DNA from: Nakazawaea peltata | Lineage: Eukaryota > Ascomycota > Pichiomycetes > Alaninales > Pachysolenaceae | Length of the DNA stretch: 64,000 nt | Assembly (NCBI GenBank): GCA_001599355.1 | Contig: BCGQ01000007.1 | Span: forward strand, 745,318-809,317 | Reading direction: 5' to 3' | Shown here: positions 1-64,000 of the stretch, in pieces | Layout: every line of letters begins with the position of its first letter | Position numbering within the stretch: position 1 is the first letter of the stretch | Made by a program: the position numbers and the translations under genes | The notes under the pieces: generated by a model | Told to the model about the DNA's origin: nothing | What the model saw: the letters and a program-made list of their open reading frames with translations, nothing else | Databases searched by the model: none

Positions 1-2786
1 ACGATCCCGACCTTTCTAAAGACAAGAGCGAAGGAAAAATACCCAAATATAAACGGATAGATATCACAGTTTCTCGTCAGATCAAAGTTCCAGACCCAAG
101 ACTCTCCTTCCAAAGGTATCCTGTCTTCCGTATACATCATCGAGACTCGAAGAAGACGTTATATCGAGAGCTTAAACAGAGTAAATTTATTTATGACAAG
201 AACTCGCATGGTCCTCCGCCAGAATGTGAGATTATCATCCATGGATATTCCATCAACACCTCCGAGAACTTGATCAAGAACACTATGAAAGTGTATGGTC
301 AGATTGAAGAGCTTATCAGTGTATCTGACCCTGATACTGGGGCTCCCTTGGGTATTTGTAGAATCAAGTTTGCCGGTTCTCCAGATAAGGCTTCTTTAAT
401 TGCTCGTAAGGCTATTCTGGAGACAGATAGACGTATGAAATTAAATGGAGTCGTAGTGAAGGTGGTCTTGAATGACCATAAAGATGTACTGTTAAACAGG
501 ATTATGGAGCTGAAGATTGGTCTGAAACGTAAACAGATCCAACAGAAAGCTGCCGAAATCGCTCAGGCCAAACCAATTCCAAAACCTGTTCTGCCTGTGG
601 CTCTGAAACCTAAACCTGTATCTGCTAATTTACTTGAGATAGGATCCCCAGATGTCAAAGCATTATTCAAGGAATCCACTCTGGCATCTCAACCTGGAAG
701 AACAAAGACTGTTGTCTCCAAAACAATCACCAATTATATCAGGAATATGGACACTTTCACCATTCCAAGCAATCTTAAAGCATCTATCAATGGGAAACCA
801 TTTTTATTCCTTCCTATTCTGGATGCTCCAACTAATATTAGCTGTTTAAATGAGTATTTCCACAATTACGCATACACCAGGATCTTCCGTGGAGATACTG
901 GTCATTATATAGTTTTCAAATGCTTGAAATTTGCTAACGAATGTTTCAGAGCAGAGTTTGGAAAAGAGGTAAAATTGGAAGATGGTCAAAGACGTTCGGT
1001 CTGTCGTTTAATGATGCGTCTTGTTGTTTCTCCTAAATGGGAGGATCTTTTCACCGGTTCAGAGATCATTTCTAGCTCTAGAAAATTCTTGTTAAATGAC
1101 TTTAAATCGAAGTTGGTTAAAGATGTATGGGATGATCTTAATTCTCTGGTTATTGAGATGTTGGATCCAAAGAATTTCCCAGAAGCTGCTGCTAAATTGA
1201 AGGAGGCCAATGAACGGAAGAAGAAAGAAGAACTGGCAATCAGACCATCTCAACTGGAAGGAGCCCGTGCTGTTCATGCTTTTGCTAAACCTGCAAGTAC
1301 TGATATATATTCTATTAATGGTCAAGTTAGCAAGACTGTCAAGTTACCATCGATTAAGAAAACGAGTCTTAAAAGACCAGGTGATAAGAAAACTTCTGCA
1401 AGAAGAAGGGCTCTTGATATTGTTCCTATGACTCACGCTTTGAACTACAGTAATGAAGATGATAGTAAGACTGTGACACCTGAGGAGACACCGGCTCCAA
1501 TCTCGGAATCTGAATCTGAAGATGAGGAACTGGAGGTTGAACAGAAGCCTATCAAAGTCAAGAAACCAAAGAAACAGAAGGTCAAGAGTGAAGAAGAGGA
1601 AGATGAGGAAGATGAGGAAGAAGAAGAGGAAGAAGAAGAGGAAGAAGAAGAGGAAGAAGAAGAGGAAGAAGAAGAGGAAGAAGAAGAGGAAGAAGATGTA
1701 GAAATGAAAGATCTGTCTTCTGAACCAACCTCTCCTGAAGAACATGAGTCCAAAATTGAGAGAGATGATTCTAATATTAATCCTCTCTATAGACCAAGTA
1801 CGGAACTTCCAGCACCTGTTTATCCATATTATCATGATAAACTCCAGTATTTCAACTCGATTTTCTCTATTATCAAAGACGAAGAAGATTTCAAATTACT
1901 GAAAGAGCTTTGTTCCAATATTGCTCCAACTTCAAATATCAAGAATTTACAATATTGGGCTTGGAAACAAAGACAGGATTACGAGATGGCCGAGAAATTC
2001 AAACTCATCAACGAAAGAAATGGTAATACTTTCGAGCTTGATTATGATGAACAATTGGATCAATTCTTCGAGAACTCAACTGGGTCATGGAAAAGTGAAG
2101 GGTTCCGGAAGATTCCTGACAACAAAAAAGCTGCCTATTTACCTCATAAGCGTAAGATTCATCAACCTTTGAACATTGTGAAGCATGGAGGAGAAGAGCA
2201 TGTCCAACAGCAACATACATCCAGTAGCAGCAGTAGTAATAATGCCAATAATTCTCGTGTCAATCGTGCAAATAACAGAAGATTTGCAGCAGATATCAAG
2301 TCGATTGGTACCGAGACCGATATTTTGGAATTAAACCAGTTGGCTAAACGTAAGAAGCCTGTTTCCTTCGCCAGAAGTGCTATTCATAACTGGGGATTAT
2401 ACGCTTTGGAACCAATTTCCGCTGGTGAAATGATTATCGAGTATGTTGGTGATAGAATTCGTCAACAGGTGGCAGAATTAAGAGAGAAGAAGTATTTGAA
2501 GTCAGGTATTGGATCATCTTACCTTTTCCGTGTGGATGAAAATACCGTTATCGATGCCACTAAAAAAGGTGGAATTGCTCGTTTCATCAACCATTGTTGT
2601 GATCCAAGTTGTACAGCTAAGATTATCAAAGTAGAAGGTAAGAAGAGAATTGTCATTTATGCTTTGAGGGATATTGGGTGTAATGAAGAATTGACTTATG
2701 ATTACAAATTTGAGAGGGAAACCAATAATGACGAACGTATTCCTTGTTTATGTGGGGCACTGACATGTAAGGGATTTTTGAATTAG
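1..2786 (+). CDS. SET1: Set1 histone H3-lysine-4 methyltransferase, 5' partial
   Basis: Catalytic subunit of COMPASS, which methylates histone H3 lysine 4 on active chromatin. The frame is open from base 3 without an ATG, so the true start lies before the window. Visible parts in order: an RNA-recognition-like region (about bases 250-490), a second RNA-binding region (about 760-1190), a long Glu/Asp tract (about 1590-1705), an n-SET-like region (about 2080-2170), the SET domain (about 2340-2720, with the substrate/AdoMet motif [11 protein letters not shown]) and a post-SET cysteine motif (CLCG...CKGFLN) at the very end. Order and C terminus match yeast Set1. The sixth-last residues include a CTG (2760-2762) between the last cysteines, where fungal Set1 often has Ala or Pro. 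Identification is secure; the N terminus is not seen. Confidence 0.96.
1618..1695 (+). repeat. 12-bp coding minisatellite (GAAGAAGAGGAA)
   Basis: Inside SET1, about six near-perfect copies of a 12-bp unit encode an unbroken run of glutamates. The identical nucleotide unit, not just the identical amino acid, indicates tandem slippage or unequal exchange, so the length is probably variable between strains. Confidence 0.9.
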
Positions 2787-2883
2787 TATAATTCGTGTAA
2801 TATAAGAATAGTTAATGTATTATTTGTAAGTATTGATTTTTAGTATAGCTCTATAGCTCTAATTATAGTTGTAAGTATACCTC

Positions 2884-3609
2884 TTAGAAAGGAATCTCTG
2901 TACCATCATAACTAAGGAATTTACCAGTCTCAGTCACATCATCAATAACTTTCAATTGCATTTTAGCACTTTGTTCTGAAGTGATCATAGGAGGAGCACT
3001 AGCCAAAAATGAAAAGATCAGTCTAGTCGAATCTGTCTCTACAACACCAGGATGAATGACACATACAATGGTATCAGGTTCCTCTCTAGCAATTTCCTTC
3101 AGAATGAAATTCAAGTACAGCTTGGAAGCACCATACAGAGAAGATCTGATAGGAATGGTGTCAAAAATTGTAATAGATCCAAGGACAGTAGTCGTAAAGA
3201 TCAATTTCTTAACACTTTTCCATAACTCTTCCTTCTTCTTAAGCTCTTGGTAGAACATAACAGGACCTAAACTGTTGATATTGAAATGGTCGGTGAACTC
3301 AGAAAGAGAGACCTTATCAATATCTTGATAAGCTTCAGGTCTTGAAATCCCGGCATTGAAAAGAATGACGTCAATTTTGTTCACAGTTGAAGCTAACTCT
3401 GAAACAAAGTTGGAAGTACTCTCTTGGTCACCAACTACGAGTTTGCTGATCTTAAGGTTACCTGTTTCTTTCAGCAACTCAGACAAGATTTCTGAATCTT
3501 TCTGGACTGTGGCAATAACAGTTGTATCTTTTCTAGAGGTGAGCTCTTTAATAAGAGAAAACCCAATCCCTCTGCTGGAACCGATAACTAAGTAAGTAGT
3601 GTTAGGCAT
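2884..3609 (-). CDS. Short-chain dehydrogenase/reductase, Irc24/YIR036C-like (copy A)
   Basis: A 241-residue cytosolic NAD(P)-dependent reductase of the classical SDR family. The N-terminal cofactor loop is GSSRGIG (residues about 9-15), the FNAG motif is near residue 87, and the catalytic YGASK tetrad motif is near residue 159. No signal peptide or membrane segment is visible. The closest yeast relatives by pattern are the benzil/diketone reductases Irc24 and YIR036C; the substrate cannot be told. The ATG at 3607-3609 is the first in frame. It lies in tandem with a close paralogue (4463-5212) on the same strand, so a local duplication is likely. Its 5' region carries three copies of CCCCAACAAA. 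Confidence 0.85.
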   Translation of the reverse strand: MPNTTYLVIGSSRGIGFSLIKELTSRKDTTVIATVQKDSEILSELLKETGNLKISKLVVGDQESTSNFVSELASTVNKIDVILFNAGISRPEAYQDIDKVSLSEFTDHFNINSLGPVMFYQELKKKEELWKSVKKLIFTTTVLGSITIFDTIPIRSSLYGASKLYLNFILKEIAREEPDTIVCVIHPGVVETDSTRLIFSFLASAPPMITSEQSAKMQLKVIDDVTETGKFLSYDGTEIPF

Positions 3610-4462: not shown

Positions 4463-5212
4463 TCAGAAAGGCAGCTCGGTTCCATCATAAACGAGGAACT
4501 TACCTGTTTCAGTCAGAGCATCAATAACCTTCAATTGCAGTTTAGCACTTTCTTCTGGACTAATAATTGGCGGACCACCTTCTGGGGCTTCACTTGAACC
4601 GGATGCCAAAAATTGGAACACCAGTCTGGCCAGATCAGTGTCAACAACACCGGGATGAATAACACAGACGATAGTATCAGGTTCTTCTGTTGCAATTTCT
4701 TTCAGAATATAGTTCAAATACAGTTTGGAAGCACCGTACAGTGAAGATTTGACAGTGAGTTTATCAAATACAGTGATAGAACCAAGCATTGAGGTGACGA
4801 AGAATAACTTGTTAACAGTTTTCCATAACTCTTCCTTCTTTTTAATCGCTTGGTAAAACATCAAAGGACCCAAACTGTTGATATTGAAATGATCTGAAAA
4901 CTCAGAGAGTGGAACCTTATCAACTTCTTGGTATACTTCAGGTCTGCAAATTCCAGCATTGAAAATGATAGTATCAACCCTTTTCACAGTGGAAGCCAAT
5001 TCAGAAACAAAACTTGATGTACTATCTTGATCACCTACCAAATATTTGAGGATCTTAATGTTACCTCTTTCTTGCAGTAAATCGCTTAAGGTTGGTGAAT
5101 CATTTTTGAGAGTAGCAATAACAGTGGTATCTTTCCGGGAGGTAAGCTCCTTAACGAGAGCGAGGCCAATACCTCTGCTCGCACCAATAACTAAGTAAGT
5201 GGAATTAGACAT
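4463..5212 (-). CDS. Short-chain dehydrogenase/reductase, Irc24/YIR036C-like (copy B)
   Basis: A 249-residue SDR, clearly paralogous to the upstream gene on the same strand: the cofactor loop (GASRGIG), the FNAGIC motif and the YGASK catalytic motif are at matching positions, and most of the rest aligns without gaps. The main difference is an insertion of about eight residues (SGSSEAPEG region) near the C terminus. Cytosolic NAD(P)H-dependent carbonyl reductase is the likely role; substrate unknown. The start ATG is at 5210-5212. The tandem pair probably arose by local duplication. Confidence 0.85.
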   Translation of the reverse strand: MSNSTYLVIGASRGIGLALVKELTSRKDTTVIATLKNDSPTLSDLLQERGNIKILKYLVGDQDSTSSFVSELASTVKRVDTIIFNAGICRPEVYQEVDKVPLSEFSDHFNINSLGPLMFYQAIKKKEELWKTVNKLFFVTSMLGSITVFDKLTVKSSLYGASKLYLNYILKEIATEEPDTIVCVIHPGVVDTDLARLVFQFLASGSSEAPEGGPPIISPEESAKLQLKVIDALTETGKFLVYDGTELPF

Positions 5213-5904: not shown

Positions 5905-5998
5905 CTTCCCCACCAGGAGTCGAACCTGGAATCTTCTGGTTCCAGAAGTGACTAACGCAAATCGTAGCCAGACGCCGTGACCATTGGGCCATGAGGAA
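5905..5998 (-). tRNA. tRNA-Arg(ACG) with 21-nt intron (copy 1)
   Basis: On the minus strand the sequence folds as a tRNA: acceptor TTCCTCA/TGGGGAA, D arm with GGCCCAATGGTCAC, anticodon stem TCTGG/CCAGA around loop CTACGA-A, T arm CCAGG-TTCGACT-CCTGG, and G73. The mature part resembles S. cerevisiae tRNA-Arg(ACG). A 21-nt insert sits after position 37, the canonical nuclear tRNA intron site, and contains GCGTTAG, which can pair with the anticodon loop. Genomic length is 94, mature 73 before CCA. Oligo-T follows the 3' end. An identical 94-nt copy is at 10972-11065. Confidence 0.93.
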
Positions 5999-6231
5999 CG
6001 AAGTTCATCTAACTTTTTCAATTTCTTACCCTAACAATTCAATAGTAGTGAGAGTATCACCTCCTATGAGCTGAGCAGAATAGTAACAAGACCATGCGCT
6101 CATCTCACCGAGACGCGGTTCTTGCGATGCGCGCGCGAGGCCCTGGAGCGCTGTGAAAAGTCTTTCTCCTATTTAGAGGGGCTTACCAGGGGGTAAAGAC
6201 AGAGCTGAAAAGGTCGAATGCGAAAGTGACA

Positions 6232-10971: not shown

Positions 10972-11065
10972 CTTCCCCACCAGGAGTCGAACCTGGAATC
11001 TTCTGGTTCCAGAAGTGACTAACGCAAATCGTAGCCAGACGCCGTGACCATTGGGCCATGAGGAA
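10972..11065 (-). tRNA. tRNA-Arg(ACG) with 21-nt intron (copy 2)
   Basis: Identical over all 94 nt, intron included, to the copy at 5905-5998 and on the same strand, but with different flanks. Same fold: acceptor TTCCTCA/TGGGGAA, anticodon stem TCTGG/CCAGA, anticodon ACG, intron after position 37. A-rich DNA lies downstream of the 3' end, though the T-run on the minus strand is interrupted close to the gene. Identity including the intron suggests recent duplication or gene conversion. Confidence 0.93.
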
Positions 11066-16224: not shown

Positions 16225-19200
16225 ATGGTTAAGAAAGCGATTGATTCCCGTATCCCTACCCTCATCAGAAATGGTGTACAGGAGAAACAGAGAAGTTTCT
16301 TCTTTATTGTAGGTGACAAGGCTCGTAATCAGTTACCTAACTTGCACTACTTGATGATGTCAGCTGACTTGAAGATGAACAAGTCGGTTCTCTGGGCATA
16401 TAAGAAGAAGTTGCTCGGGTTCACATCCCACAGAAAGAAGAGAGAGGATAAGATTAAGAAGGAGATCAAAAGAGGTATCAGAGAGGCCAATGAATTGGAT
16501 CCATTCGAGGCCTTCATCTCCAACCAAGATATTGATTACGTTTACTATAAAGAGAGTGAGAGAGTATTGGGTAGAACATATGGTATGTGTATTTTACAAG
16601 ATTTTGAGCTGTTGACACCAAATTTGTTGGCCAGAACTATTGAGACTGTCGAGGGAGGTGGTTTGGTGGTCATTCTTTTGAAATCCATGACCTCTTTAAA
16701 GCAGTTATACACTATGACTATGGATATTCATTCTCGTTATAGAACAGAAGCTCATAATGACGTTGTTGCAAGATTCAATGAGAGATTTTTGTTATCCCTT
16801 GGATCATGTGAGACTTGTCTTGTTGTAGATGACGAACTTAACGTCTTACCTATCTCTGGAGGAAAGAATGTCAAGAGATTACCTCCTAAAGATGACGATG
16901 AATTGAGTGAGAAGGAACAAGAATTGAAAGATCTCAAAGAAAGTTTAGCTGATGTTCAACCGGCTGGATCTTTGGTTTCCTTATCCAAAACAGTCAACCA
17001 AGCTCAAGCTATCTTGACTTTTATCGATGTCATTGCTGAGAAGAATTTGAAAAGCACTATCTCTCTTACTGCCGGAAGAGGTAGAGGTAAATCTGCTGCT
17101 TTAGGTATTGCTATTGCCGCAGCTATTTCTCATGGTTACTCCAATATTTTTGTAACATCCCCATCCCCTGAGAATTTGAAGACTTTATTCGAGTTCATTT
17201 TCAAAGGTTTCGATGCCTTGGGATATACTGAGCATTTGGACTACGATATCATTCAATCGACTAATCCAGAATTGAAGAAAGCTATTGTTAGAGTCGATAT
17301 CAAGAGAGCCCATAGACAGACTATCCAATACATTGCCCCAACCGATTCTCATATGTTGAACCAAGCCGAATTAGTCATTATAGATGAAGCTGCCGCTATC
17401 CCATTACCTGTAGTTAAGAAACTTTTGGGTCCTTACTTAGTATTCATGGCTTCTACTATCAATGGTTATGAAGGTACTGGTAGATCTTTGTCATTAAAAT
17501 TGATCCAACAATTGAGAGACCAATCTGTATCTACTGGTCCTACTGATACTGTGATTGCTTCAAGATCCGATAAGAAGAAATCTGAAGTTGAGCCTGAAAT
17601 TCATGGCCGTTCTTTGAAAGAGGTGGTCTTAGATGAGCCAATTAGATACGCTCCTGGTGACCCTGTAGAAAAATGGTTGAACAAATTGTTATGTCTTGAT
17701 GCCACTTTACTGAAGAACAGTAAATTTGCAACTAAGGGATGTCCTCATCCTTCCGAATGTAATTTGTTCTACGTAAACAGAGATACCTTATTCTCTTACC
17801 ACCCAGTCTCTGAGACTTTCTTACAAAAAATGATGGCTTTGTATGTAGCTTCTCATTATAAGAACTCGCCAAATGACTTGCAATTGATGTCAGATGCTCC
17901 TGCTCATCAGTTGTATGTCTTATTACCTCCTATCGATGACAAGGATAACAGAATCCCAGATCCTTTATGTGTAGTTCAAGTAGCTTTGGAAGGTGAAATC
18001 TCGAAGGAAAGTATTAGAAAATCTCTTGGTAGAGGTGTAAGAGCCGGGGGAGATTTAATTCCTTGGTTAATTTCCCAACAATTCCAAGACGATGAATTTG
18101 GTTCATTGAGTGGAGCAAGAGTTGCCAGAATCGCCACTCATCCTGATTACGTCAGTATGGGTTATGGCTCCAGAGCAATTGAATTGTTGAAAGATTATTT
18201 CGAAGGAAAATTCGCTAATATTTCCGAGAATTATAATGACGATGATTCTAAATATTCATTGAAAAGAGTCAGTGATCTGGAATTGGAGAAGAGTACTTCT
18301 TTGTTGAAGGATGATGTCAAGTTAAGAGACGCTAAAACATTACCCCCATTATTATTAAAATTATCTGAAAAATCACCATATTATTTAGATTATTTGGGGG
18401 TTTCTTATGGATTGACTAAGAATTTACATAAATTCTGGAAGAATAACGGTTTTATTCCTGTCTATTTAAGACAAACAGCCAACGAATTGACCGGTGAACA
18501 CAGTTGTGTGATGTTGAAGACTTTGGAAAACAGACAAGATAAATGGTTGAAAGAATTTGCCAAAGATTTCCATAAAAGATTCCTCTCTTTATTGAGCTAT
18601 AATTTCAGAGATTTCAGCGCAGTTCAAGCTTTAAATATAATTGAGAATGTGAAGGGGGCTAATTTCGATGAGGAAGTTAAACAATTAGATAAGCAAGAAC
18701 TCGACGATAACTTGACTCCATTCGATTTGAAAAGATTGGAATCGTATTCCAATAATTTATTGGACTACCATGTAATTGTGGATATGTTACCATACTTATC
18801 GAGATTGTATTACTTAGGAAAAATCAACTCGTTCAAATTGTCTTCGATTCAAAGTGCCGTTTTATTGGCTTTAGGATTACAACATAAAGATATCGACACT
18901 ATTGCCAAGGAGTTGAATATTGGAAGTAGTCAAACTATTGCTATGTTTGCCAAGACCATTAAGAAACTCTCTAAACATTTGAATGATATTTTGTCACAAG
19001 AAATTTCAAAGAGTTTACCTGATTTGGAAGATGAGGAACTTAAAGAGATGAATGGTGAAGAATTGAACGTTAATCTGGTTGAAGAAATCGAAAGAGAATT
19101 GGCCGAGGATCTTGAGCAAGCCGGAAACGAAGTCGTCAGCGAATTAAAAGAAAAACAAAGAGAATTAATTAACTCCTTGAACTTGGATAAATACACAATC

Positions 19201-19374
19201 AGTGACGACGCAGAGTTCGAGACTAACAAAAAAGCTTTAGATAAGCTGGTTAAAAACAATGGAACCGTCAGTTTGAAGAATGATAAGAAAAAAAGAAAAT
19301 CCACGAGCTCTTCGGAAATTTATGAGGAGGAAATGAAATCATTCAAGAAGAAGTCAAAGAAATCAAAGAAATAA
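16225..19374 (+). CDS. KRE33: Kre33/NAT10 RNA cytidine acetyltransferase
   Basis: Essential nucleolar enzyme that forms N4-acetylcytidine in 18S rRNA and tRNA, with ATP hydrolysis. 1049 residues (yeast 1056). DUF1726/TmcA N-terminal region, RecD-like helicase region with the ATP loop GRGRGKSA (about 282) and DEAAAIP (about 389), GNAT acetyltransferase domain (about 530-760; MGYGSRAIELL acetyl-CoA loop at about 645), tRNA-binding/regulatory region, and a Lys-rich nuclear tail. A CTG at codon 129 (16609-16611) stands where the yeast and human proteins have Ala in the EALTPN motif. The 3' end overlaps NRK1 by 12 bp on the other strand. Confidence 0.97.
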   Translation: MVKKAIDSRIPTLIRNGVQEKQRSFFFIVGDKARNQLPNLHYLMMSADLKMNKSVLWAYKKKLLGFTSHRKKREDKIKKEIKRGIREANELDPFEAFISNQDIDYVYYKESERVLGRTYGMCILQDFELLTPNLLARTIETVEGGGLVVILLKSMTSLKQLYTMTMDIHSRYRTEAHNDVVARFNERFLLSLGSCETCLVVDDELNVLPISGGKNVKRLPPKDDDELSEKEQELKDLKESLADVQPAGSLVSLSKTVNQAQAILTFIDVIAEKNLKSTISLTAGRGRGKSAALGIAIAAAISHGYSNIFVTSPSPENLKTLFEFIFKGFDALGYTEHLDYDIIQSTNPELKKAIVRVDIKRAHRQTIQYIAPTDSHMLNQAELVIIDEAAAIPLPVVKKLLGPYLVFMASTINGYEGTGRSLSLKLIQQLRDQSVSTGPTDTVIASRSDKKKSEVEPEIHGRSLKEVVLDEPIRYAPGDPVEKWLNKLLCLDATLLKNSKFATKGCPHPSECNLFYVNRDTLFSYHPVSETFLQKMMALYVASHYKNSPNDLQLMSDAPAHQLYVLLPPIDDKDNRIPDPLCVVQVALEGEISKESIRKSLGRGVRAGGDLIPWLISQQFQDDEFGSLSGARVARIATHPDYVSMGYGSRAIELLKDYFEGKFANISENYNDDDSKYSLKRVSDLELEKSTSLLKDDVKLRDAKTLPPLLLKLSEKSPYYLDYLGVSYGLTKNLHKFWKNNGFIPVYLRQTANELTGEHSCVMLKTLENRQDKWLKEFAKDFHKRFLSLLSYNFRDFSAVQALNIIENVKGANFDEEVKQLDKQELDDNLTPFDLKRLESYSNNLLDYHVIVDMLPYLSRLYYLGKINSFKLSSIQSAVLLALGLQHKDIDTIAKELNIGSSQTIAMFAKTIKKLSKHLNDILSQEISKSLPDLEDEELKEMNGEELNVNLVEEIERELAEDLEQAGNEVVSELKEKQRELINSLNLDKYTISDDAEFETNKKALDKLVKNNGTVSLKNDKKKRKSTSSSEIYEEEMKSFKKKSKKSKK

Positions 19375-20975: not shown

Positions 20976-21992
20976 CTATTTATCATTGAAAAAATCTTTA
21001 AATGTAAGTGGCCTTAATTCTATCTTGGAATCGGTCGAGTTTGTATCTTTCAAATTCTGTCTGATGAACTCTCTTGTAGCAGAAAATGCTGCATTTCTTG
21101 ATAATTCTTTCAAATCACTTCCACTGTAACCATCGGTTAATTTGGCAATATCTGTAGTAGTAAAACCTTCCTCCAACTCGACATCCTTCAATAACAAATC
21201 CAAGATTTTAACACGTTGAGACATTATAGGTAATGATATTTGGAATTTCTTTGGTAATCTTCTCAAAAATGCCGAATCGATATCATCTGGTCTATTAGTT
21301 GCTCCTAAAATCATGATACGACCGTTCAGTTTTAAACCGTCCCATAATTGCATGAACTCAGCCTTCAACATAGCGGTGACCTCATGGTCTTGAGATGTTC
21401 TATCTCTCAAAAATGAGTCTATCTCATCGATAAATATAATACAAGGTTGTAATTTGTTCAGCAAGCTGAAAATAGCATCCACTAATTTGTTAGACTCTCC
21501 TACCCATTTGTCCAAGATGGAGGACATTCTGATAGAGATGAAATTTGCCCCACTTTCAACAGCCAACAGTTTCAGTAACATGGTCTTACCGCATCCAGGT
21601 GGCCCGTATAATAAAACTCCCCTTGGCAGTTGTAATAAATTCCCGTACTGAGTGTACAATTCTGGGCAAGTTAAAGGCAATAAGACGCTTTCTTTCAACT
21701 CATCTACAATAGGTTCTAACCCACCAATATCCTTGAAATTGACATTAATCTCATCTGGTGTTATCACTGAGGCCAATAACAGTCTTTCATATTCACTCAA
21801 AGTTGACAGGTCGAAATTTGGATTGGCTGTCTTGAACTTATTCAATGATTCTTTCAATTTCTTCTTGTCCTTTGTGATTGGTGACGTAACTTCATTGAGA
21901 TATGTGTTCAACAAATAGAATACAGAAACACTGGCACCTATGAGGCAAGCCAAATCAACAGCTACCTTCAAATCAAACTTGAATTTAGACAT
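20976..21992 (-). CDS. MSP1: Msp1 (ATAD1) AAA ATPase of the mitochondrial outer membrane
   Basis: Extracts mislocalised tail-anchored proteins from the outer membrane and peroxisome. 338 residues (yeast 362). One N-terminal membrane helix (about residues 9-28), then a single AAA domain: Walker A GPPGCGKT (about 131), Walker B IIFIDEID (about 187), sensor ATNRPDDID (about 230) and the arginine finger FLRRLPKKF (about 240). The CTG at codon 178 (21459-21461) sits in FSL-x-NKLQP, where yeast and human both carry Ala; this is one of the strongest indications of a CUG-Ala code. Confidence 0.95.
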
Positions 21993-53083: not shown

Positions 53084-54940
53084 TCATAACTTGGCCTTAC
53101 TACTCAAATGTGCCTCAAACATCTCTCTAATTTCATTTGCCAGCTCTAACAAGTAATAATTCAATTTCTCACTGGTATATCCAAATCCATTTTCTTTATA
53201 ACAGGTGATGTTCACGTGGAGGAAATCGTTATTGATCATATAAGCCAACCCATAACCATCTGGAACTACTGGAGCCCAACCATATCCATTGAAATTATTA
53301 GATGACAATTGAGATGTAGAGATAAACCAATGAGAAGAATAAGAGTACATTGGATCATTGTAGAAATCGTGTACTTTCTCTCCAGGTTCGTAAAGTTGCT
53401 TTAAACCAAACAAATGTCTATCACAGCCTTTACCATCAGAAGCCTTTAAGACATACTTCATATGGGATGCTACGGCATCTTTAAATAAGTTATACCTCTG
53501 CTCATTAGTGGCTCCAGCCCAAGAACTGACATATTTAACACTTTCGCTAGAAACAGAACGACAAGTCTCGGTTCTACCTTTGAAATACTTTCTTGTAGAT
53601 GCAGCCTCATAAGTTGGTTTACAAATACCTGTCATCTTATAATAACCCAACTGCATGAGCATCTGAATGAAGGCATCTGGAGAAACTTTGAAAGTTTTAA
53701 TCTTATTTTTACCTAATCCATAGTATTGGAATACTTTGATATCTAAAGAATTGACGGTCTTATCAAACTCTTTGATCAGATCCAGAATACCAGATTCAAT
53801 TTTTGGGTTGATATCCCAAATAAGTTTAGAAGGAGGATTTACTTGAGAGATATCGGTATTTAATCCATCTAATGAACCATATTTGTTCAATTCAGTGACT
53901 AACCAGTCGTTCATCTTCAAAGTCGGTGTTCCATCCATTTTACTATGTTCTCCAAGGAATCCCGAAGCACCATTCAGAGCAACAAACATTTGAACAGGTT
54001 TATCGAACCAACGATTGGTTCCATTTCCGTGCCAACAATTTCTAGATCTCTCCTCAATGGTAATTGGCGAGTGAGAATCCAAGCAGAGTACAAAGGAAGA
54101 AGATTGGATCTCCTTCAAATTTTGCAAATTCAAGGCACTCTTCTCCAATTCAGCATAATTATCAGACCAAATGTCTCTATTAGAAGAAGTCAAGACACCA
54201 ACTGGAGCCTGTTTCAACAGGGTCTTCGATGTGCTCAACACAACATCTAATAATTGCTGGTAAATTTGCAGCTCATTGAGAGCATTCCCGTTTATGTCAT
54301 GATGATAAACTTTGAAGAATTGATTCTCATAGATAACAATGAAATGTCTATTCTCTTCAGGAGAATAAATGACCGTTTCATCTCTAACAGGCTTAGGAAC
54401 TCTACAATTATTGAACAGAAATTTGAAGGATTCCATGCAGAAAGGATTCCCCTTTATCAATTCGGGCAGCAAGGTTTCATTTTCGATCGATTCCATGAAT
54501 TCCACCACTTTCTTCACTATCAAAGAAGCTTTCAACAATTGATTCGATTCGATCTTGGCATTTCTCAATGGACGATGACTGTAAAAATATGAGACAAACG
54601 GACTTACGGGATCTCTGAAGTCCAAATAAGCATAATTATCCCACCAATTACTCAACCAATTTCTCGATTTCATCAGAGCAAGCCTCAGCTGCAATTTCTC
54701 CAGATCCCCGCCCGGCTTGATGAAATCCTTGATTAAAGTTTCGGTTTTCTTGTACCCCTCTTCATTTTTCCCATACAACGGCTTAACGGAATCCAAATAA
54801 GTCTGCAGGGTCTCGTGGAGCTCGGGGATCGGTAACGATGGCAACGAATCTTGGTACTTGAACAAGTCACCCTTGGCTACAGGGCTAGTGTAGAAAGATC
54901 TCACAGGCATTCTCAAGTTCCCTCTAATCACACGTTTCAT
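53084..54940 (-). CDS. CAT2: Cat2 carnitine O-acetyltransferase
   Basis: Moves acetyl groups between CoA and carnitine in mitochondria and peroxisomes. 618 residues (yeast 670). The N terminus is basic without acids (MKRVIRGNLRMPVRSFYTS), a mitochondrial presequence; the C terminus is AKL, a peroxisomal PTS1. LPSLPIPELHETLQTYL opens the fold, the NWLSNWWD motif follows, and the catalytic His is in GEHSKMDGTP (about 332). The SSEHW-type C-terminal region is present as YSSHWFISTSQLSS. The CTG at codon 322 (53975-53977) lies in F-V-A-x-NGASGF, where Ala would suit the family. A second Met at residue 11 could make a shorter form. Confidence 0.94.
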   Translation of the reverse strand: MKRVIRGNLRMPVRSFYTSPVAKGDLFKYQDSLPSLPIPELHETLQTYLDSVKPLYGKNEEGYKKTETLIKDFIKPGGDLEKLQLRLALMKSRNWLSNWWDNYAYLDFRDPVSPFVSYFYSHRPLRNAKIESNQLLKASLIVKKVVEFMESIENETLLPELIKGNPFCMESFKFLFNNCRVPKPVRDETVIYSPEENRHFIVIYENQFFKVYHHDINGNALNELQIYQQLLDVVLSTSKTLLKQAPVGVLTSSNRDIWSDNYAELEKSALNLQNLKEIQSSSFVLCLDSHSPITIEERSRNCWHGNGTNRWFDKPVQMFVALNGASGFLGEHSKMDGTPTLKMNDWLVTELNKYGSLDGLNTDISQVNPPSKLIWDINPKIESGILDLIKEFDKTVNSLDIKVFQYYGLGKNKIKTFKVSPDAFIQMLMQLGYYKMTGICKPTYEAASTRKYFKGRTETCRSVSSESVKYVSSWAGATNEQRYNLFKDAVASHMKYVLKASDGKGCDRHLFGLKQLYEPGEKVHDFYNDPMYSYSSHWFISTSQLSSNNFNGYGWAPVVPDGYGLAYMINNDFLHVNITCYKENGFGYTSEKLNYYLLELANEIREMFEAHLSSKAKL

Positions 54941-55239: not shown

Positions 55240-56391
55240 TCATTGATGGTCAAGATGTTTCGGAGTAATGAGGATCTTGACATGTTTATCCTTATGGTTG
55301 AACAACTGATCAAATGCTCCATCGATGGCATCTTTCAACAACACTTTGCGGGTAATCATTGAAGCAGCTTTTTTAACACTGATCGATCCATCTTCGAAAC
55401 TTTCAACTACTTTACGGAAATCTTCAAGAGTATAGCACATGCTTCCTGTGGCCATTTTTTCTTGGTAAGTTAAATCCATGACGTAATGTTCGACTGGTTT
55501 ATGAGACCAAACTGCAACATTCACGGCAGTTCCTCTTGGTCTTAAAGCATCAATTGACGTTCTATAAGTGATTGGAAATCCTGAACAATCAAATGAAACA
55601 TCAAAACCTTTACCATCAGGGGACAATTTTTGAAAGTCGGTGGTATCATCCATTGACAGACCCATTGGATCGAAGACTTGAGATCCCAAATCTTCAGCTT
55701 GAGATCTTCTAATTCCCAGTGGTTCTGAGCAAACAATAGCACCAGCTCCTTTTGCTTGTAAACATAAAATTAATCCCAATCCAATTGGACCTGCTCCTAT
55801 GATCAACAGCGACTGGCCTGGCTGAAATCTGGCAACTTCCATAGCATGCCAAGAGACAGCAAGAGGTTGAATCAAAGCAGCAACATCCAATGGTAAATCG
55901 TCTGGGATTTTCATGACATGATCAGCTCCATAAACAACGTAATCAGCTAATCCTCCATTTTCTGAACCTAATCCACAAAGTCCCAAATAGTCACAGATGT
56001 TACTAGATCCTTTTTCACAGGCAACGCACCAATCCTTGAACAGATTTTCTCCCAAAAAGTGGGTATAGTTTGCACGATCTTTACACGACAGAGTTGGTTC
56101 AACGACAACTCTATCCCCTGGCTTTAAATGGGTCACGTTCGCTCCTACTTCCTTAACGATGCCTGACATCTCATGACCCAACAGCATAGGCAGCTTCTTG
56201 CCGGTGATTTCATGCCCTTCATCATCTTTAGGGAAGAAGATAGGACCGTCCGTAATCTCTTTCAAGTCGGAACCACAAATTCCACACCATGATACTTCGA
56301 TTAAAACTTCATCAGGAGTCTCAATTGATGGCTTCGGCAACCCTGTATCGAATCTAATATCCCCTTTACCGTGAAATCTAATTGCATTCAT
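55240..56391 (-). CDS. BDH1: (R,R)-butanediol dehydrogenase type, zinc medium-chain dehydrogenase
   Basis: Cytosolic NAD-dependent oxidation of butanediol or reduction of acetoin/diacetyl. 383 residues (yeast Bdh1 382). Catalytic zinc Cys in CGICGSD (about 33-39), GHEMSG motif (about 68), NAD fold with IIGAGPIG (about 197-204), and the family-specific regions YLGLCG, AALIQPLAVSWHA and TGSMCYTLEDF. Codon 195 is CTG (55807-55809), directly before LIIGAGPIG, where Bdh1 and relatives have Ala. The first ATG of the frame is at 56389-56391. It is divergent from the glutathione transferase gene. Confidence 0.92.
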   Translation of the reverse strand: MNAIRFHGKGDIRFDTGLPKPSIETPDEVLIEVSWCGICGSDLKEITDGPIFFPKDDEGHEITGKKLPMLLGHEMSGIVKEVGANVTHLKPGDRVVVEPTLSCKDRANYTHFLGENLFKDWCVACEKGSSNICDYLGLCGLGSENGGLADYVVYGADHVMKIPDDLPLDVAALIQPLAVSWHAMEVARFQPGQSLLIIGAGPIGLGLILCLQAKGAGAIVCSEPLGIRRSQAEDLGSQVFDPMGLSMDDTTDFQKLSPDGKGFDVSFDCSGFPITYRTSIDALRPRGTAVNVAVWSHKPVEHYVMDLTYQEKMATGSMCYTLEDFRKVVESFEDGSISVKKAASMITRKVLLKDAIDGAFDQLFNHKDKHVKILITPKHLDHQ

Positions 56392-56802
56392 CTCGCTTAC
56401 AGTCTTCACACTATTCTTCTTATCTGACAGCTTTTTCTGCAGCCGGCTTGCTCACTAGGAAATATCACTGGCTCACTGTGTTACCGTTTTGGGCAACCCG
56501 AAGTTGCTGCCCCGTTTGCCTCCGTATTGCTCAGCAAAATATTAATCACGGAAATCTATAGGAATGCGCGGACCTACGTGGCAAGTTCCCCCTCATATGC
56601 GGCGCAATTTGACCAGATCATTAGCAAAATACTATTGATCACGTCATATCACCATAGAATCATCCCCCACTGCGCACCAATTAGGAAAATGAGAAACGGT
56701 GCACACAGTATTAGTAAGCGTTGCCCTAATTGGGCATATATAAATAGGGGTAGATAGGGTCCAATTGATAATGAGAACCCAGCTGAAAAATCACTTACAA
56801 AA
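56392..56802 (+). promoter_or_regulatory. BDH1/GST divergent promoter
   Basis: A TATA box (TATATAAATA, 56737-56746) lies 57 bp upstream of the glutathione transferase ATG. An upstream ATG at 56771 opens a 22-codon frame that overlaps the GST start. A repeated AGCAAAATA/TATTGATCACG-like segment occurs at about 56532-56547 and 56622-56642. Confidence 0.55.
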
Positions 56803-57483: not shown

Positions 57484-59903
57484 AATAATTTAGTTGGATA
57501 TACATTATGTTTGCTTAATTATTTGTAGCTTATAAGTTTAATGCATGAGCTTATTATCTTCAATGCTATCTTTAAATCTCGCATATGTCTCTGTTATCTT
57601 CAATCTTGACCTCATACAAAGCTGTTAAACATTTCTTGGCAAAAAATGCATTTTTTCATCATTTCGATCAGCTACACTTGTTACATTTGAGGGTGCTCTT
57701 TGTGTAAAGTTTCTCAAATAGAAAATCATTCATGAAGAAATGTCGGAATATTCTTTCCTATGTATTGTACATGGTTTCTGTTAATGCCAGCAAGCCTCCC
57801 TTCAATATTTAGATGAAAAATGTGCTTGACATTCTAAAGGTTTATCTGCTGTCACTCAACCTAGAGTCCCAGGGAGAATCTAATGTTAAAAATTGCATGC
57901 GCAATCCCTTGCAACTTATGGGTCACTTTACCTGGCAAGGCACGTTTAGACTCAGAAATGGCAGGACATCAGATACTATGACATTTTATCGTTCTTTTTT
58001 CGGCTACCAGCCTCGGTAAGCTGAGCATCCAATGGCAGTTCTTTCTTTGAATAGCGATTTGTTTCATCAATCAATTTACTATTTCTTTCTTTTAGTTCTT
58101 ATCGGCTTGCTTTTTAGTCAATGCTTGGCATTAAGATGACAACACACTAATAATTATTTCAAGCTCAATTAATGCCATAAACAATACGGGATACAGCGAT
58201 ATATTTTCCGGCTGTAACTTATGCACCAATAGAGTTCACCGAGAAGACAAGGATTTAACTGAATCTAATTGTATCCTATTATAACTGATCATCTTGTGAA
58301 GGGATTATAGAGAGCCTCTCTGAAAGGGAATATACATAATAAGTACGAGCAGAGTAGGAATCGTAGAAAGGGAATCCTCTTAGTTCCATGTGTATTCTTC
58401 CTCTATAAGGAGTTTGGTTTTTTGTAATCAATCCCTCAAATACGTCTGTCATTCGTTTAAACCCCTGTATCGGATTTCGTCATTGGAACAGCACATCAAG
58501 ACCTCGCACCTCCTTTGCAGCTAACTGTCATGAACAAGAATCTCATAATCTACAGTCCATTTATTTTCAGAATGAACCATTTCAAAAGTGAGACAACCAA
58601 CATCAGTCGTCGTAAATTACCAACCGATAATCAATTGGGATTTTGAGTGACATCTGCATTCATGGAGAATTTCGACGCTTGAGCTATTTCGAAGCTGCAG
58701 AAAGCGGTTGCATGATTGCTGTAGGCCATTCCTAGCCGAAAAAGAATCAGGAGGTATTCTCTGATCCTATAACTATGAAATCCCAAACATACTAGTTTAA
58801 ACTGATACAATTGAAATCATCTCGTTTATGTTTTGTTTTCGTTAGTACTGTGGTACAGAAGCGACGAAGTATGCCGTTAAAGGGTGAAATTTAACTAGGT
58901 CTCTTGTTTTTTATCTATTTTCGTCAACGGTGCACATTTTCCGACAGAGAAATGTACGCCCTTTTGCTTGTCTTAAAGTTTACCATCTGTGTTTGTCTTA
59001 TGTTTTCTCAAGAACTGTGTACATAAGAATTTATTTTTCTTTTCTTCGAAAATTAAGTTTGTGCGTGATCGAAGTCCCAAAACGGTCAAAAAAAGCTCCC
59101 AGCGCAGAAAATTAATATGGGAGGTGTGCAATAGGTATGGTAACTCTCTTAGTAATAAGTGTCTCATCGCAAAATAAAACAGCTCAAAACACGTTGCAGC
59201 AGATAAGTGCCACAAAAAACTAATGTTATTTGTCTCATTTTCTTTTCGTGTTCATCTTATCCCAATCAGGTAAAGAAACAGTCTTTAAAAAAAACGCACT
59301 GTTGCATTCATCCGAAAAGGGTTAAATTATGAGCTGGCCAGAATCAACATAAAGTCATTCATAGTTACGGGTGAAGCGTCTGCTCTGATCATTCTCCGCC
59401 CGCCGCCCAATAGCGAAGATCGCCCGAGACACTATCATAAACTATTTTCTAGACGTGATTGATTTCTTTTTTTCTCCTTGCGCAGTTAGCTTATCTAAAA
59501 AGGTAAAAAAACCGTCTTCAAAAAAAAACCCACTCAATGCGTGCTCGAAAAGGGTTAAATTCTCAATGAACCGAACAATATATAAAGGTGTCTTCCCCTT
59601 AGTCAAGTTTCAAGAGTTTTGTTCCACAATCAAGAATCATACCTTGACACCAATATGAATTTGTGAAATGTAAACTGCCAGCCTAACTACTGTCTTAACT
59701 CAAAACAGGATACGCTTTTCACATGAGACCAAGAGGTGGCAGTCATAACTCACCATCGATGTTACTTTCGCTAAAATTGGAGATGTATTGCATTTAGGAT
59801 TGGCTGTCAAGATCATTGATATAAATACAGATGGATGCCCCCATCTCTCGCATCTCTGTTCATCAAAGCAAAAATATTAATTCAAGTTTCAAGTGCTACA
59901 GAT
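57484..59903. other. Long upstream region of the adhesin gene (2.4 kb)
   Basis: No credible gene; frames are short and unrelated to known proteins. It ends with a TATA box (TATAAATA, 59820-59827) 77 bp before the likely adhesin start. AAAGGGTGAAATTTAAC near 58879-58895 resembles the core AAAGGGTTAAATT of a duplicated 60-bp element at 59269-59561. FLO-type genes of other yeasts also have multi-kilobase promoters with many regulators. Confidence 0.5.
59269..59561. repeat. Duplicated 60-bp element upstream of the adhesin
   Basis: Two related 60-bp blocks, 59269-59328 and 59502-59561. Both start GGTAAA(G/A)AAAC(A/C)GTCTT, continue into a poly-A stretch and a CACT motif, and end with the identical CGAAAAGGGTTAAATT. 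Distance start to start is 233 bp. The ends are conserved and the middle is less so, which suggests paired binding sites at fixed spacing. Confidence 0.75.
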
Positions 59904-62900
59904 ATGCCGGAGCTTCAGGTATATCTTAGAGGAATTTTAGTTTTCCTCTTATTCCATGTTCACCTTTCTATGGCTGCTGAGAATTTGAACAACACATTCG
60001 AGTTGGATCACTATGCATGTGTTATTGATGCCACGCCTCTGTATCCTGGATTCAGAGTTACAGCCTATAATTATCCTCTGTCAAATAAAACAGGTGTTAA
60101 CAGCCCTGACTATATGGCTTATGGTTACTTTGACTTGCCAATTGAGGGAGGATACGAAGGACTTTTAGATCCTACTACTGACAATCAGTCAGAAGATGAT
60201 AGAGAAACTGCCACTGATTGGACTACAGAAGTCTACGGTATTACTGTCACTGAACATCACTACCTTGTAGAGATGATTGCCTATTTCTATGCCACAGAGA
60301 CTGGATACTACCAATTCAGGTTTACAAAAATCGATGATGCCGTGATCTTTCTCTTTGGTGAATTTGCCTTCGACTGTTGTACCATGGATGTTGATTCATC
60401 CAATGAAGATGACCTCGAGTATGTGTTCTACAATAGTAATGCAGGCAATTATGTCGATGATCAAGGAGACTCTACTACCAGTGTCTGGTTGGCGTCCGTT
60501 TACTTGGAAGCAGATTACTACTATCCAATGAGAATTGTCTTCCTGAATATTGGAAAGGGATCTTCCTTGCTCTTCACCATGAAAACTCCAAGTGGCGCGC
60601 AAATTGACTGGGCTGACTCTGTATCCATTTTTAATTATACTCAAGACGAGAACATTTGTGGTGAAGTTGCCTTACCGCTTCGTACTACTACTGTTACCGA
60701 ACCTTGGACTGGTGTTGGAACTACAACAACCACTTACACTACAACATATACCTCTGGAAGCTCTATTGGTGAAGTCGTAAGTGTTATTATTGAGACACCA
60801 ACTCACACACCATCAACCGTCACTACCACTGAGCCTTGGACTGGATCAGAGACCTCAACTACTACTACCACAGATTCACAAGGGGATGTGTCAGTTATAG
60901 TCGAGACTCCAACTCATATTCCATCAACCGTCACCACCACTGAACCTTGGAGTGGCTCTTTCACTACTACTACTACCACTACTGATTCACAGGGGGATGT
61001 GTCGGTCATAGTTGAGACACCAACTAGCACGCCATCTACTGTCACTACCACTGAGCCATGGAGTGGAACCTTTACCTCTACTACCACTACTACCGACTCT
61101 CTCGGTGACGTCACCGTCATTGTTGAAACACCAACTATCATGCCATCCACTGTTACCACCACTGAGCCATGGAGTGGATCTTTCACTTCCACTACTACCA
61201 CCACTGGACCAGACGGAGGTGTCACCGAGATTGTTGAGACTCCAAGTGAGATGCCAGCTACCACAACCACTACGGAACCTTGGAGTGGAACGGTGACTTC
61301 TACGACCACCACTACTGGTCCCGATGGCGGTGTCACTATCATTGTTGAGACACCAACTAGCACTCCTTCCACTGTTACCACCACTGAGCCATGGAGTGGA
61401 ACTTTCACTTCCACTACTACCACCACTGGACCAGATGGTGGAGTGACTGAAATTGTTGAAACGCCAACTCACACACCTTCGACTGTTACCACTACCGAGC
61501 CTTGGACCGGAACTACCACTTCATATTCGACAACCACAGCTCCTAATGGAGATGTCACAGTTATCGTTGATACCCCAGCCTCTACTCCATTCACTATTAC
61601 TAGGACTACCCCTTGGAGTGGAACGTTCACCACAACTACCACAACTACAGATTCTCTTGGTGATGTTACTGTGATTGTTGAAACACCAACTGAAATGCCA
61701 TCTACAGTCACAACCACTGAGCCTTGGAGTGGTACCTTCACCTCTACTACCACAACGACAGGTCCAAATGGGGGCGTCACTGTTATTGTTGAGACCCCAT
61801 CCAGTGTTAGAAAAACAGATGGTTTGTTCACTACTACCACAACAGAGCCTTGGAGCGGTACTTTCACAACTACATACACGACACATGGTGATCTTGCGAA
61901 CTTCATCACTGTAGTTGTCGAGACTCCAGAGTCCAGTTCAAGTTCAACTTCACCTAGCTCGAGCCATTCGCCATCAACTATGACTACCACCTCACCTTGG
62001 AGTGGAACTGTGACGTCTACAACCACCACCACTGGTCCAGATGGAGGCGTGACAGAGATTGTTGAGACTCCAACTGACACTCCTTCTACGGTCACTACCA
62101 CTTCACCTTGGAGTGGTACCTTCACATCAACTACTACTACCACTGGCCCAGATGGCGGAGTAACTGAGATTGTTGAGACTCCAACTAACACACCATCCAC
62201 TATCACCACCACTTCACCTTGGAGTGGAACTGTGACATCCACCACTACTACTACCGGTCCAGATGGTGGAGTTACTGAGATTGTGGAGACCCCAACTCAT
62301 ATTCCATCAACCGTTACCACCACTGAACCTTGGAGTGGCACTTTCACCACTACTATTACTAAGACTGCTCCAAACGGAGATGTATCCGTTATCGTCGACA
62401 CTCCAGCTTCAACACCATATACCTTAACGAGAACAAGTGGTTGGAGTGAGTCATTTACAAGCACAACCACCACCACTGGACCAGATGGAGGTGTCACATT
62501 GATCGTCGAGACTCCAACTCATACTCCATCTACAAGCACCACTACTACTCCTTATGACGGTTCTGTTGTTACTACATCTACCTCTACTGAGCCAGATGGA
62601 GGGGCACTTGTTATCATCAAGACTCCAACTCACACTCCATCCACAAGCACTACCACCTCTCCTTATGATGGTTCCGTTGTCACTACGACTACTTCCACAG
62701 AACCAGATGGCGGTGCGCTTGTTATTATCAAGACGCCTACCCATACTCCATCAACAAGTACCACTACCACACCTTATGACGGTTCTGTTGTTACTACATC
62801 TACCTCTACTGAGCCAGATGGAGGGGCACTTGTTATCATCAAGACTCCAACTCACACTCCATCTACCATCACTACTACCACTCCTTGGGATAACTCCTAC

Positions 62901-63662
62901 ACTACCACTGTATCCTCTACCCAACCAGATGGTGATGTTGTCGTTTATGTTGAGACCCCAGTCTCTAAGGGACAGACTATTAGCCTTACAACTCCTTGGG
63001 ACAAGCCATACACTTCTACTTCGTACGCCACTAACCCAGATAATGGAGTAGTCACAGCTATTGTTGAGACTCCAGTCCACACTCACAGCTTGACAGATAC
63101 CTGGAGTGGAGATTACACCAAGACTTTGACCGCCACTAACCCAGATAACGGGGATGTCACTGTTATCGTCGATGTCCCAGGTGCCACTACCACTACCACT
63201 ACTTTGCCTGCTAAGGGAACTATCAGTACCAGAGTCATTACAGTCGAGACTCAAGCCGATGTCACTAACACTGTTGTAGAGCTTATTACCTGTGCTCCAA
63301 GTACTTCCAAGGGCAATGTTGTTACTGTGATTTCGACAATGTGCACATGCACTCTTAATCAAGATGGATCTACTCCAGCTTGTAACGGATCTTCCGGATC
63401 TGGCTCTGGAAACTCTGGTTCATCAGGATGCTCCGGTTCCTCTGGAAACTCCGGTTCTTCTGGAAACTCAGGTAACTCAGGTAGCTCCGGTAATTCTGGA
63501 AACTCTGGTTCTTCCGGTTCTTCTGGAAGCTCTGGCTCTGGTTCTTCTGATTCTGGTTCTGGTTCTGGCTCAGACACAACTATTTACGAAGGTGCCGCCT
63601 CCGCCTTGACTGCCCAATCTGGTCTCTTGGCTGCCTTGATTCTGTTCCTCTTCTTCTACTAG
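59904..63662 (+). CDS. Flocculin-type GPI-anchored adhesin with PA14-like domain
   Basis: About 1252 residues. The start at 59904 gives a good signal peptide (LRGILVFLLFHVHLSMA) and lies 77 bp after a TATA box; an upstream in-frame ATG (59835) is only 8 bp from that box, so it is less likely. The N-terminal domain (about 30-245) is PA14/Flo-like: YFYATETGYYQFRFTKIDDA with a possible calcium-binding Asp-Asp pair, AFDCC, and a late Cys pair partner in DENICG. About 22 flocculin-type Thr-rich repeats follow, then a Cys-containing segment, a Ser/Gly tract (SGNSGSSG) and a hydrophobic GPI signal. It likely acts as a lectin-like cell-surface adhesin. The ligand is unknown. Confidence 0.9.
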   Translation: MPELQVYLRGILVFLLFHVHLSMAAENLNNTFELDHYACVIDATPLYPGFRVTAYNYPLSNKTGVNSPDYMAYGYFDLPIEGGYEGLLDPTTDNQSEDDRETATDWTTEVYGITVTEHHYLVEMIAYFYATETGYYQFRFTKIDDAVIFLFGEFAFDCCTMDVDSSNEDDLEYVFYNSNAGNYVDDQGDSTTSVWLASVYLEADYYYPMRIVFLNIGKGSSLLFTMKTPSGAQIDWADSVSIFNYTQDENICGEVALPLRTTTVTEPWTGVGTTTTTYTTTYTSGSSIGEVVSVIIETPTHTPSTVTTTEPWTGSETSTTTTTDSQGDVSVIVETPTHIPSTVTTTEPWSGSFTTTTTTTDSQGDVSVIVETPTSTPSTVTTTEPWSGTFTSTTTTTDSLGDVTVIVETPTIMPSTVTTTEPWSGSFTSTTTTTGPDGGVTEIVETPSEMPATTTTTEPWSGTVTSTTTTTGPDGGVTIIVETPTSTPSTVTTTEPWSGTFTSTTTTTGPDGGVTEIVETPTHTPSTVTTTEPWTGTTTSYSTTTAPNGDVTVIVDTPASTPFTITRTTPWSGTFTTTTTTTDSLGDVTVIVETPTEMPSTVTTTEPWSGTFTSTTTTTGPNGGVTVIVETPSSVRKTDGLFTTTTTEPWSGTFTTTYTTHGDLANFITVVVETPESSSSSTSPSSSHSPSTMTTTSPWSGTVTSTTTTTGPDGGVTEIVETPTDTPSTVTTTSPWSGTFTSTTTTTGPDGGVTEIVETPTNTPSTITTTSPWSGTVTSTTTTTGPDGGVTEIVETPTHIPSTVTTTEPWSGTFTTTITKTAPNGDVSVIVDTPASTPYTLTRTSGWSESFTSTTTTTGPDGGVTLIVETPTHTPSTSTTTTPYDGSVVTTSTSTEPDGGALVIIKTPTHTPSTSTTTSPYDGSVVTTTTSTEPDGGALVIIKTPTHTPSTSTTTTPYDGSVVTTSTSTEPDGGALVIIKTPTHTPSTITTTTPWDNSYTTTVSSTQPDGDVVVYVETPVSKGQTISLTTPWDKPYTSTSYATNPDNGVVTAIVETPVHTHSLTDTWSGDYTKTLTATNPDNGDVTVIVDVPGATTTTTTLPAKGTISTRVITVETQADVTNTVVELITCAPSTSKGNVVTVISTMCTCTLNQDGSTPACNGSSGSGSGNSGSSGCSGSSGNSGSSGNSGNSGSSGNSGNSGSSGSSGSSGSGSSDSGSGSGSDTTIYEGAASALTAQSGLLAALILFLFFY
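60685..63150 (+). repeat. Flocculin repeat array, about 22 units of about 35 codons
   Basis: Each unit follows the pattern VTTTEPWSGTFTSTTTT, then GPDGGV or DSLGDV, then a VIVETPT linker. The early units read EPWTG/EPWSG, the later ones SPWSG, then PYDGS (three units), PWDN and PWDK variants. Bases 62550-62641 and 62772-62863 are identical over 92 bp, while the unit between them differs, mainly at silent sites. Many Thr codons and almost no CTG in this array. Confidence 0.9.
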
Positions 63663-64000
63663 AAAAAGAGAGCTGATCTACCCCAAAATGCCTACATTGC
63701 TTTGATTGTTTTGTTTAGGCATTGCCCAGCCTCCCCTTTTGATTTTGGTGATAGCGGTGAAGTTATCACCTCCTTTTTTAACGTTAGTACTGCAGAAACG
63801 GCCAAACGGCCAAGGCAATTCAAGTCAATCTTTGTTTGCCTTCACTGTCTGCATTTTTCANCCTTTCTTCTGGAGGCTTATTATTGATTAATAAATTATA
63901 TTGTATTAACTTCTTGTAGTAGTTCATTAAAGAGGAGTCACTAAGTTGTGTGTATTATACTAATTTTCCCTGATAAGGTACAGAAATTTGTAAATTGCAG
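63663..64000. other. Adhesin 3' flank to window end
   Basis: No gene seen. ACGGCCAA is directly repeated at about 63798-63814. One ambiguous base (N) is at 63861. The last bases end AAATTGCAG, which could be an intron acceptor of a gene beyond the window, but nothing supports it. Confidence 0.4.

Follow-up and report, generated by a model that had tools for sequence, protein, structure and literature searches.

Evidence that CUG is assigned to alanine in the nuclear code of a yeast related to Pachysolen

Which amino acid does the codon CTG specify in this yeast? The question is raised by a stretch of nuclear DNA of 64,000 nucleotides (hereafter the window, positions 1 to 64000; G000:C7:745318-809317), in which a reading made from the letters alone noted CTG at positions where familiar proteins carry alanine. 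On this basis, the sequence-only reading proposed that CUG is translated according to NCBI table 26. The whole window is best taken as nuclear yeast DNA in which CTG stands for alanine. The genome containing the window comprises 11.63 Mb in 11 contigs, and the right end of the window is the end of its contig. Protein searches with MSP1, CAT2, and GIT1 from the window returned Pachysolen tannophilus as the nearest named relative in all three cases, with identities of 71%, 65%, and 71%, respectively. Kuraishia follows at 65%, 55%, and 70%. The yeast thus most likely belongs to the order Alaninales, although at these identities it is hardly P. tannophilus itself. Among the matches listed, relatives closer than P. 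tannophilus reach identities of up to 83%, 72%, and 77%.

The papers that announced the CUG-Ala code reportedly date from 2016. In the portion of PMC5951914 that concerns this clade, the code is established for Pachysolen, Nakazawaea, and Peterozyma (clade membership as given there and in the NCBI taxonomy). Parts of PMC8629427 describe a Codetta survey of 462 yeasts that took in the same code, and PMC11540330 uses it to characterize the order Alaninales. The finding for the window and its genome is correct and, since the code is published for these genera, already known in kind.

Two other features of the window are recorded here. Single N bases occur at positions 41486, 42770, and 63861, and two of them lie within one ORF, which we presume to resemble zinc-cluster transcription factors. 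Close to the contig end, an ORF of 1275 codons on the + strand (59835-63662) is rich in Thr and Ser, has a hydrophobic C-terminus and 111-base tandem repeats, and contains only five CTG codons. We take it to be similar to subtelomeric cell-wall adhesins.

CTG codons in conserved proteins of the window

To score CTG against relatives, each CTG codon of MSP1, CAT2, and GIT1 was entered as X before alignment, and log-odds were summed over the sites. The best 120 relatives were listed for each protein, with queries translated using table 26. Eight relatives (three each for MSP1 and CAT2, two for GIT1) are Pachysolen or closest proteins and were excluded from the counts because they possibly had been translated with another code. 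Scores were obtained for 33 of the 36 CTG codons, each with at least 60 aligned letters, whereas three with under 60 were dropped. The sums are +56.9 bits for Ala, −0.2 for Ser, −17.6 for Thr, and −58.7 for Leu. As a control, the standard residue was returned for every one of the 55 other codons that were scored. Among relatives, the most frequent residue is alanine at 19 of the 33 CTG sites and leucine at none of them, and the earlier statement that CTG avoids invariant leucines holds for all 33.

The clearest individual cases are found in MSP1, an AAA ATPase (20976-21992, − strand) with seven CTG codons, four of which have alanine as the commonest residue in relatives. CTG codons 140 (21573-21575) and 142 (21567-21569), whose positions were computed from the ORF start at 21992, fall on invariant alanines directly past the Walker A motif (117 of 117 relatives at both). 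Codon 178 (21459-21461), one of the alanine positions originally named, is Ala in 114 relatives and Gly in three. Codon 122 (21627-21629, also computed from 21992) is Ala in 85, Ser in 30, and Pro in two of 117. Leu appears at the invariant-alanine sites in two relatives, at 142 and 178 in one and at 140, 142, and 178 in the other. Such residues would result if these relatives had CTG codons of their own at the same sites and had been translated with the standard code.

The glycerophosphoinositol transporter GIT1 (30175-31815, + strand) has 17 CTG codons, of which 15 could be aligned, and alanine is commonest at 10 of these. Its codon 181, described earlier as commonly alanine, is indeed Ala in 84 of 118 relatives. 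For the carnitine acetyltransferase CAT2 (53084-54940, − strand), 11 of 12 CTG codons are alignable and alanine is commonest at five. The same description was given of CAT2 322, for which the evidence is weaker: Lys occurs in 52 and Ala in 39 of 117 relatives, and Glu in the solved chain. Other CAT2 sites also fit poorly. Codon 45 is Ala in 36 and Leu in 31 of 117 relatives, with Leu in the solved CrAT chain shown; codon 80 is Gly in 109 of 117; and codon 175 is Met in 116 of 117. The last of these is an odd place for alanine, and CTG there is one base away from ATG.

When only columns conserved to at least 80% among relatives are considered, CTG falls on Ala in eight of 10 cases, with one Gly and one Met. 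At 90% or above, it does so in four of six, again with one Gly and one Met.

Solved structures offer a separate comparison. The structure searches were run with queries in the standard code and therefore carry no bias toward alanine; the alignments were read by hand from the best few shown for each search. The hits give molecule names only, and the species mentioned below are those we take the chains to represent. Solved Msp1 has Ala at positions 122, 140, 142, and 178, Glu at 62, Thr at 71, and Asn at 222. KRE33, an RNA cytidine acetyltransferase (16225-19374, + strand), has five CTG codons. Codon 129 (16609-16611) had been assigned to an alanine shared by yeast and human proteins; Ala is present in the three chains shown of eight matched, and the human chain is not one of the three. 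The alignments shown cover three of the five CTG sites. Besides Ala at 129, they have Ile at 496 and Lys at 685, except that Ala is found at 685 in the chain that is presumably from Chaetomium. In ATP17 (ATP synthase subunit f), whose downstream exon spans approximately 35067-35306 on the − strand, the alanine proposed for CTG 35211-35213 is present in both subunit f chains, which we assume to be the yeast protein.

The remaining structural comparisons are mixed. A BDH1-like dehydrogenase (55240-56409, − strand) contains seven CTG codons, one of which precedes the motif LIIGAGPIG (55807-55809). This codon, numbered 195 at the outset, was expected to match an alanine of yeast Bdh1; alanine is present in the one chain aligned, although that chain is a bacterial-type butanediol dehydrogenase and not yeast Bdh1. 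With ORF numbering, this solved relative has Ala at 201 and 73, Thr at 76, Ser at 231, Phe at 107, and gaps at 123 and 251. Two short-chain dehydrogenase paralogs on the − strand are neighbors, and both are rich in CTG. The first (2884-3609) has five CTG in 241 codons, including two in the motif S-x-YGASK-x, and the second (4463-5212) has nine in 249 codons. Read by hand against a solved relative, the second has Ala at 46, 158, 164, and 224, Leu at 232 and 248, Thr at 170, Met at 194, and Gly at 197. RSC4 93, also listed as commonly alanine, is so in one of five bromodomain alignments of a single chain (A, K, C, E, E). The corresponding claim for CIA2 107 did not hold, as the three chains shown have His, His, and Glu. 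For the PhyH dioxygenase, no solved relative was found by structure search.

All six sites for which positions had been proposed (in MSP1, KRE33, BDH1, ATP17, CIA2, and DGK1) do contain CTG in frame. The codon is likewise present at PhyH 164 and 280 and at CAT2 322, as well as at RSC4 93 and GIT1 181 once both are renumbered from the ATG start.

Pfam bit scores were computed for six proteins translated with three codes and summed by hand over seven chosen domains with CTG (AAA, adh_short, Sugar_tr, ADH_N, ADH_zinc_N, PhyH, and MutS_III), leaving out those families of these proteins that overlap or are unaffected. The totals are 641.9 for Ala, 636.0 for Ser, and 621.1 for Leu, which reject leucine clearly and serine weakly. 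Serine is preferred to alanine by Sugar_tr (107.6 versus 104.2), ADH_zinc_N (70.1 versus 67.7), and, by 0.1 bit, MutS_III, and leucine is preferred to alanine by ADH_N (94.2 versus 93.2). The MFS_1 model, which is outside the sum, favors alanine (64.6, compared with 62.6 for Leu and 58.9 for Ser).

Paralogs across the genome and the frequency of CTG

CTG was also assigned by aligning members of gene families from the same genome. Four families were used, namely AAA ATPases, short-chain dehydrogenases, mitochondrial carriers, and sugar transporters, for a total of 71 sequences (68 stretches and three window proteins). All stretches were retained for the ATPases (20/20), dehydrogenases (19/19), and sugar transporters (9/9), and 20 carrier genes were chosen from 100 domain matches. 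Alignment columns filled in fewer than 60% of rows were dropped. For the 310 CTG sites, alanine scores best whether columns are left unfiltered or are filtered for conservation at 0.4 or 0.6, and control codons are assigned correctly in 55 of 60, 55 of 59, and 53 of 58 cases, respectively.

Conserved columns of the paralogs give a similar picture. CTG falls on Ala at 30 of 34 sites in columns conserved to at least 80% (Gly three times, Lys once) and at 20 of 20 sites in columns conserved to at least 90%, although the sites in either set come from shared columns and so are not independent. When paralogs and relatives are pooled at the 80% threshold, 38 of 44 CTG sites are on Ala, and none is on Leu or Ser. 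In the same data, TTG, TTA, and CTT are mostly on Leu. CTG is thus placed on alanine positions beyond chance, and alanine is the best assignment both against relatives of the three window proteins and among genome paralogs, as the sequence-only reading had concluded.

The distribution of CTG over alanine positions is much like that of GCN codons. The residue profile of the paralogs has an Ala share of 0.224 at CTG sites versus 0.276 at GCN sites, and a Leu share of 0.070 versus 0.061, compared with a Leu share of 0.290 at Leu codons. In relatives, the Leu share is 0.019 at CTG sites and 0.023 at GCN sites. Within the four families, Ala columns conserved to at least 80% hold 30 of 310 CTG, 64 of 601 GCT, 38 of 382 GCC, 21 of 157 GCA, and three of 28 GCG codons. 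For the three window proteins, the fractions in Ala columns are 8/33 for CTG versus 25/76 for GCN at the 80% threshold, and 4/33 versus 22/76 at 90%. It is doubtful that CUG now behaves like any other alanine codon, free of a leucine signature, because CTG in these window proteins lies on conserved alanine less often than GCN does.

The codon is common. It accounts for 214 of 14,477 codons in 26 window ORFs (14.8 per 1000) and for 15.6 per 1000 in window ORFs of at least 200 codons. ORFs from 60 other loci give 17.5 per 1000; 30 of these loci surround tRNAs and the other 30 surround loose pattern matches on contig 1, with stop-to-stop stretches included, and some of them overlap, so that this figure counts some codons twice. 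CTG makes up 16% to 27% of all GCN plus CTG codons in the four paralog families. Eight of the 20 AAA stretches lack CTG entirely, and it is therefore likely that CTG is avoided in some genes, perhaps highly expressed ones. Where PMC5951914 pools the code-changed clades, CUG is described as relatively rare and mostly confined to poorly conserved sites. Compared with that pooled description, the rarity is absent here.

A tRNA(CAG) gene with alanine identity elements

The sequence-only reading called for a search of the full genome for an alanine-identity tRNA whose anticodon is CAG. Genome pattern searches combined with ARAGORN identified a sole tRNA(CAG) gene, which lies outside the window (G000:C4:81426-81498, + strand). 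Its ARAGORN cloverleaf has a short variable loop and displays G3:U70 and A73. The latter two are identity elements for alanyl-tRNA synthetase, and the gene therefore has the alanine identity that was sought. A DNA search with this gene as query matched only itself. The printed tRNA-Leu and tRNA-Ser genes of the genome differ from it in having long variable arms.

No Leu-type tRNA(CAG) was found by the genome pattern searches, which miss genes with long introns and those with GCAGA loops. Similarly, patterns meant to catch Ser types, GCAGA-type loops excepted, revealed no tRNA(CAG) with a long variable arm. The other tRNA-Leu genes found have anticodons AAG, UAG, and UAA (two copies), and those with AAG and UAG remain for the other CUN codons. 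The tRNA-Leu(UAG) gene (G000:C4:804518-804725, − strand), recovered by ARAGORN with introns allowed, has an unusually long intron of 120 bases and was caught by pattern only via its 3′ half.

The published source of the CUG-reading tRNA is tRNA-Ala. Here, whole-gene identity to tRNA(CAG) is 51/72 for Val, 50/72 for Glu, 50/72 for Ala, and 53/83 for the longer tRNA-Leu. Core identity is 0.74 for Val and 0.68 and 0.63 for Ala, and the best between-isotype matches range from 0.68 to 0.83. The core thus resembles tRNA-Val(UAC), tRNA-Glu, and tRNA-Gln at least as much as it resembles tRNA-Ala of the same genome. These similarities are within background. One scenario is that the gene arose from another isotype, for example, from tRNA-Val(CAC), which is one anticodon base away, by gaining an alanine acceptor stem. 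We regard this as a rather weak proposal because the similarities do not exceed background and because the pattern search for tRNA-Val(CAC) may miss real genes: it returned none, and a related pattern overlooked even the tRNA-Val(UAC) gene known to be present.

The search tools differed in yield. Tighter tRNA patterns took the place of a loose one that had produced 421 matches versus 383 in its backward control. An Rfam tRNA search of the genome, in which 63 of 608 candidates were scored, missed many genes, including both tRNA-Arg genes of the window. These two identical tRNA-Arg(ACG) genes (5905-5998 and 10972-11065, − strand) are about 5 kb apart and have a 21-base intron each; ARAGORN run without introns also missed them.

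Code assignment and comparison with other yeasts

These data are best explained if CUG is an alanine codon in the nuclear code (NCBI table 26), and from the alignments and the tRNA gene we put the probability of this assignment at about 98%. CUG would be read by the tRNA(CAG) with G3:U70 and A73. Given these two features and the short variable loop, charging with alanine and reading of CUG are expected. This scheme presumes that alanyl-tRNA synthetase does charge the tRNA and that its gene is expressed, and the arrangement probably descends from a single Leu-to-Ala change in the yeasts now called Alaninales.

If the standard code applied instead, CTG would encode leucine and would meet alanine positions by chance. 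The sum for leucine over the 33 sites, more than 100 bits below that for alanine, the lack of leucine at all 44 conserved-column sites, in data in which TTG, TTA, and CTT mostly meet it, and the failure of pattern searches to find a Leu-type tRNA(CAG) together make this extremely improbable, despite the partly leucine site CAT2 45 (31 of 117 relatives), the second dehydrogenase, in which two of the nine CTG codons meet Leu in a solved relative, and the 1-bit preference of ADH_N. A serine assignment, as in the Candida (Ser1) or the Saccharomycopsis–Ascoidea (Ser2) yeasts, is equally remote. Serine does rank second in both the paralog and the relatives tests, and two Pfam models (Sugar_tr and ADH_zinc_N) prefer it. 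However, it scores 57 bits below alanine at the 33 sites and is absent from the 44 conserved ones, and the tRNA(CAG), with its short variable loop and A73, is unlike the printed tRNA-Ser genes of the genome. Neither CTG codons mostly on conserved Leu or Ser nor a Leu- or Ser-type tRNA(CAG), both named earlier as grounds for abandoning the alanine assignment, turned up in the gene sample and tRNA patterns.

A more subtle possibility is that CUG is mostly alanine and partly leucine, owing to wobble by tRNA-Leu(UAG) or to an undetected tRNA-Leu(CAG) gene with an intron. The tRNA-Leu(UAG) gene with its 120-base intron exists and could in principle wobble to CUG, a CAG gene interrupted by a long intron would not have matched the patterns used, and a few CTG codons do fall on Leu or Met of relatives. 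On the other hand, the excess of Leu at CTG over GCN sites is only +0.010 in paralogs (reached by 173 of 2000 shuffles) and −0.003 in relatives (1180 of 2000). For Leu, Ile, and Met combined, the excess is +0.014 in paralogs (226 of 2000) and +0.024 in relatives (445 of 2000). CTG also stands on invariant alanines of the ATPase, although alignments are blind to a low rate of misreading. Partial leucine decoding is unlikely on balance.

Assignment of CUG to alanine agrees with the code of Pachysolen, Nakazawaea, and Peterozyma, which shares with this genome the placement of CTG on alanine sites and a CAG-anticodon tRNA of alanine type. As in the CUG-Ser1 code of the Candida clade (table 12), CUG has moved off leucine through a new tRNA(CAG). 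It differs from that code in that the new meaning is alanine and the tRNA lacks a long variable arm. In the CUG-Ser2 code of Ascoidea and Saccharomycopsis, the same codon has been reassigned to serine rather than alanine. A further difference is that no tRNA-Leu(CAG) was found here beside the new tRNA, as judged by pattern search only.

Translation of this genome with the standard code would place a wrong residue at ∼1.5% of positions on average, including the helix after Walker A of the ATPase, so that anyone using the genome needs an annotation made with table 26. The abundance of CTG in these genes slightly modifies the account usually given of yeasts with an altered code. Biologically, the genome represents a further, apparently complete case of a known sense-codon reassignment.
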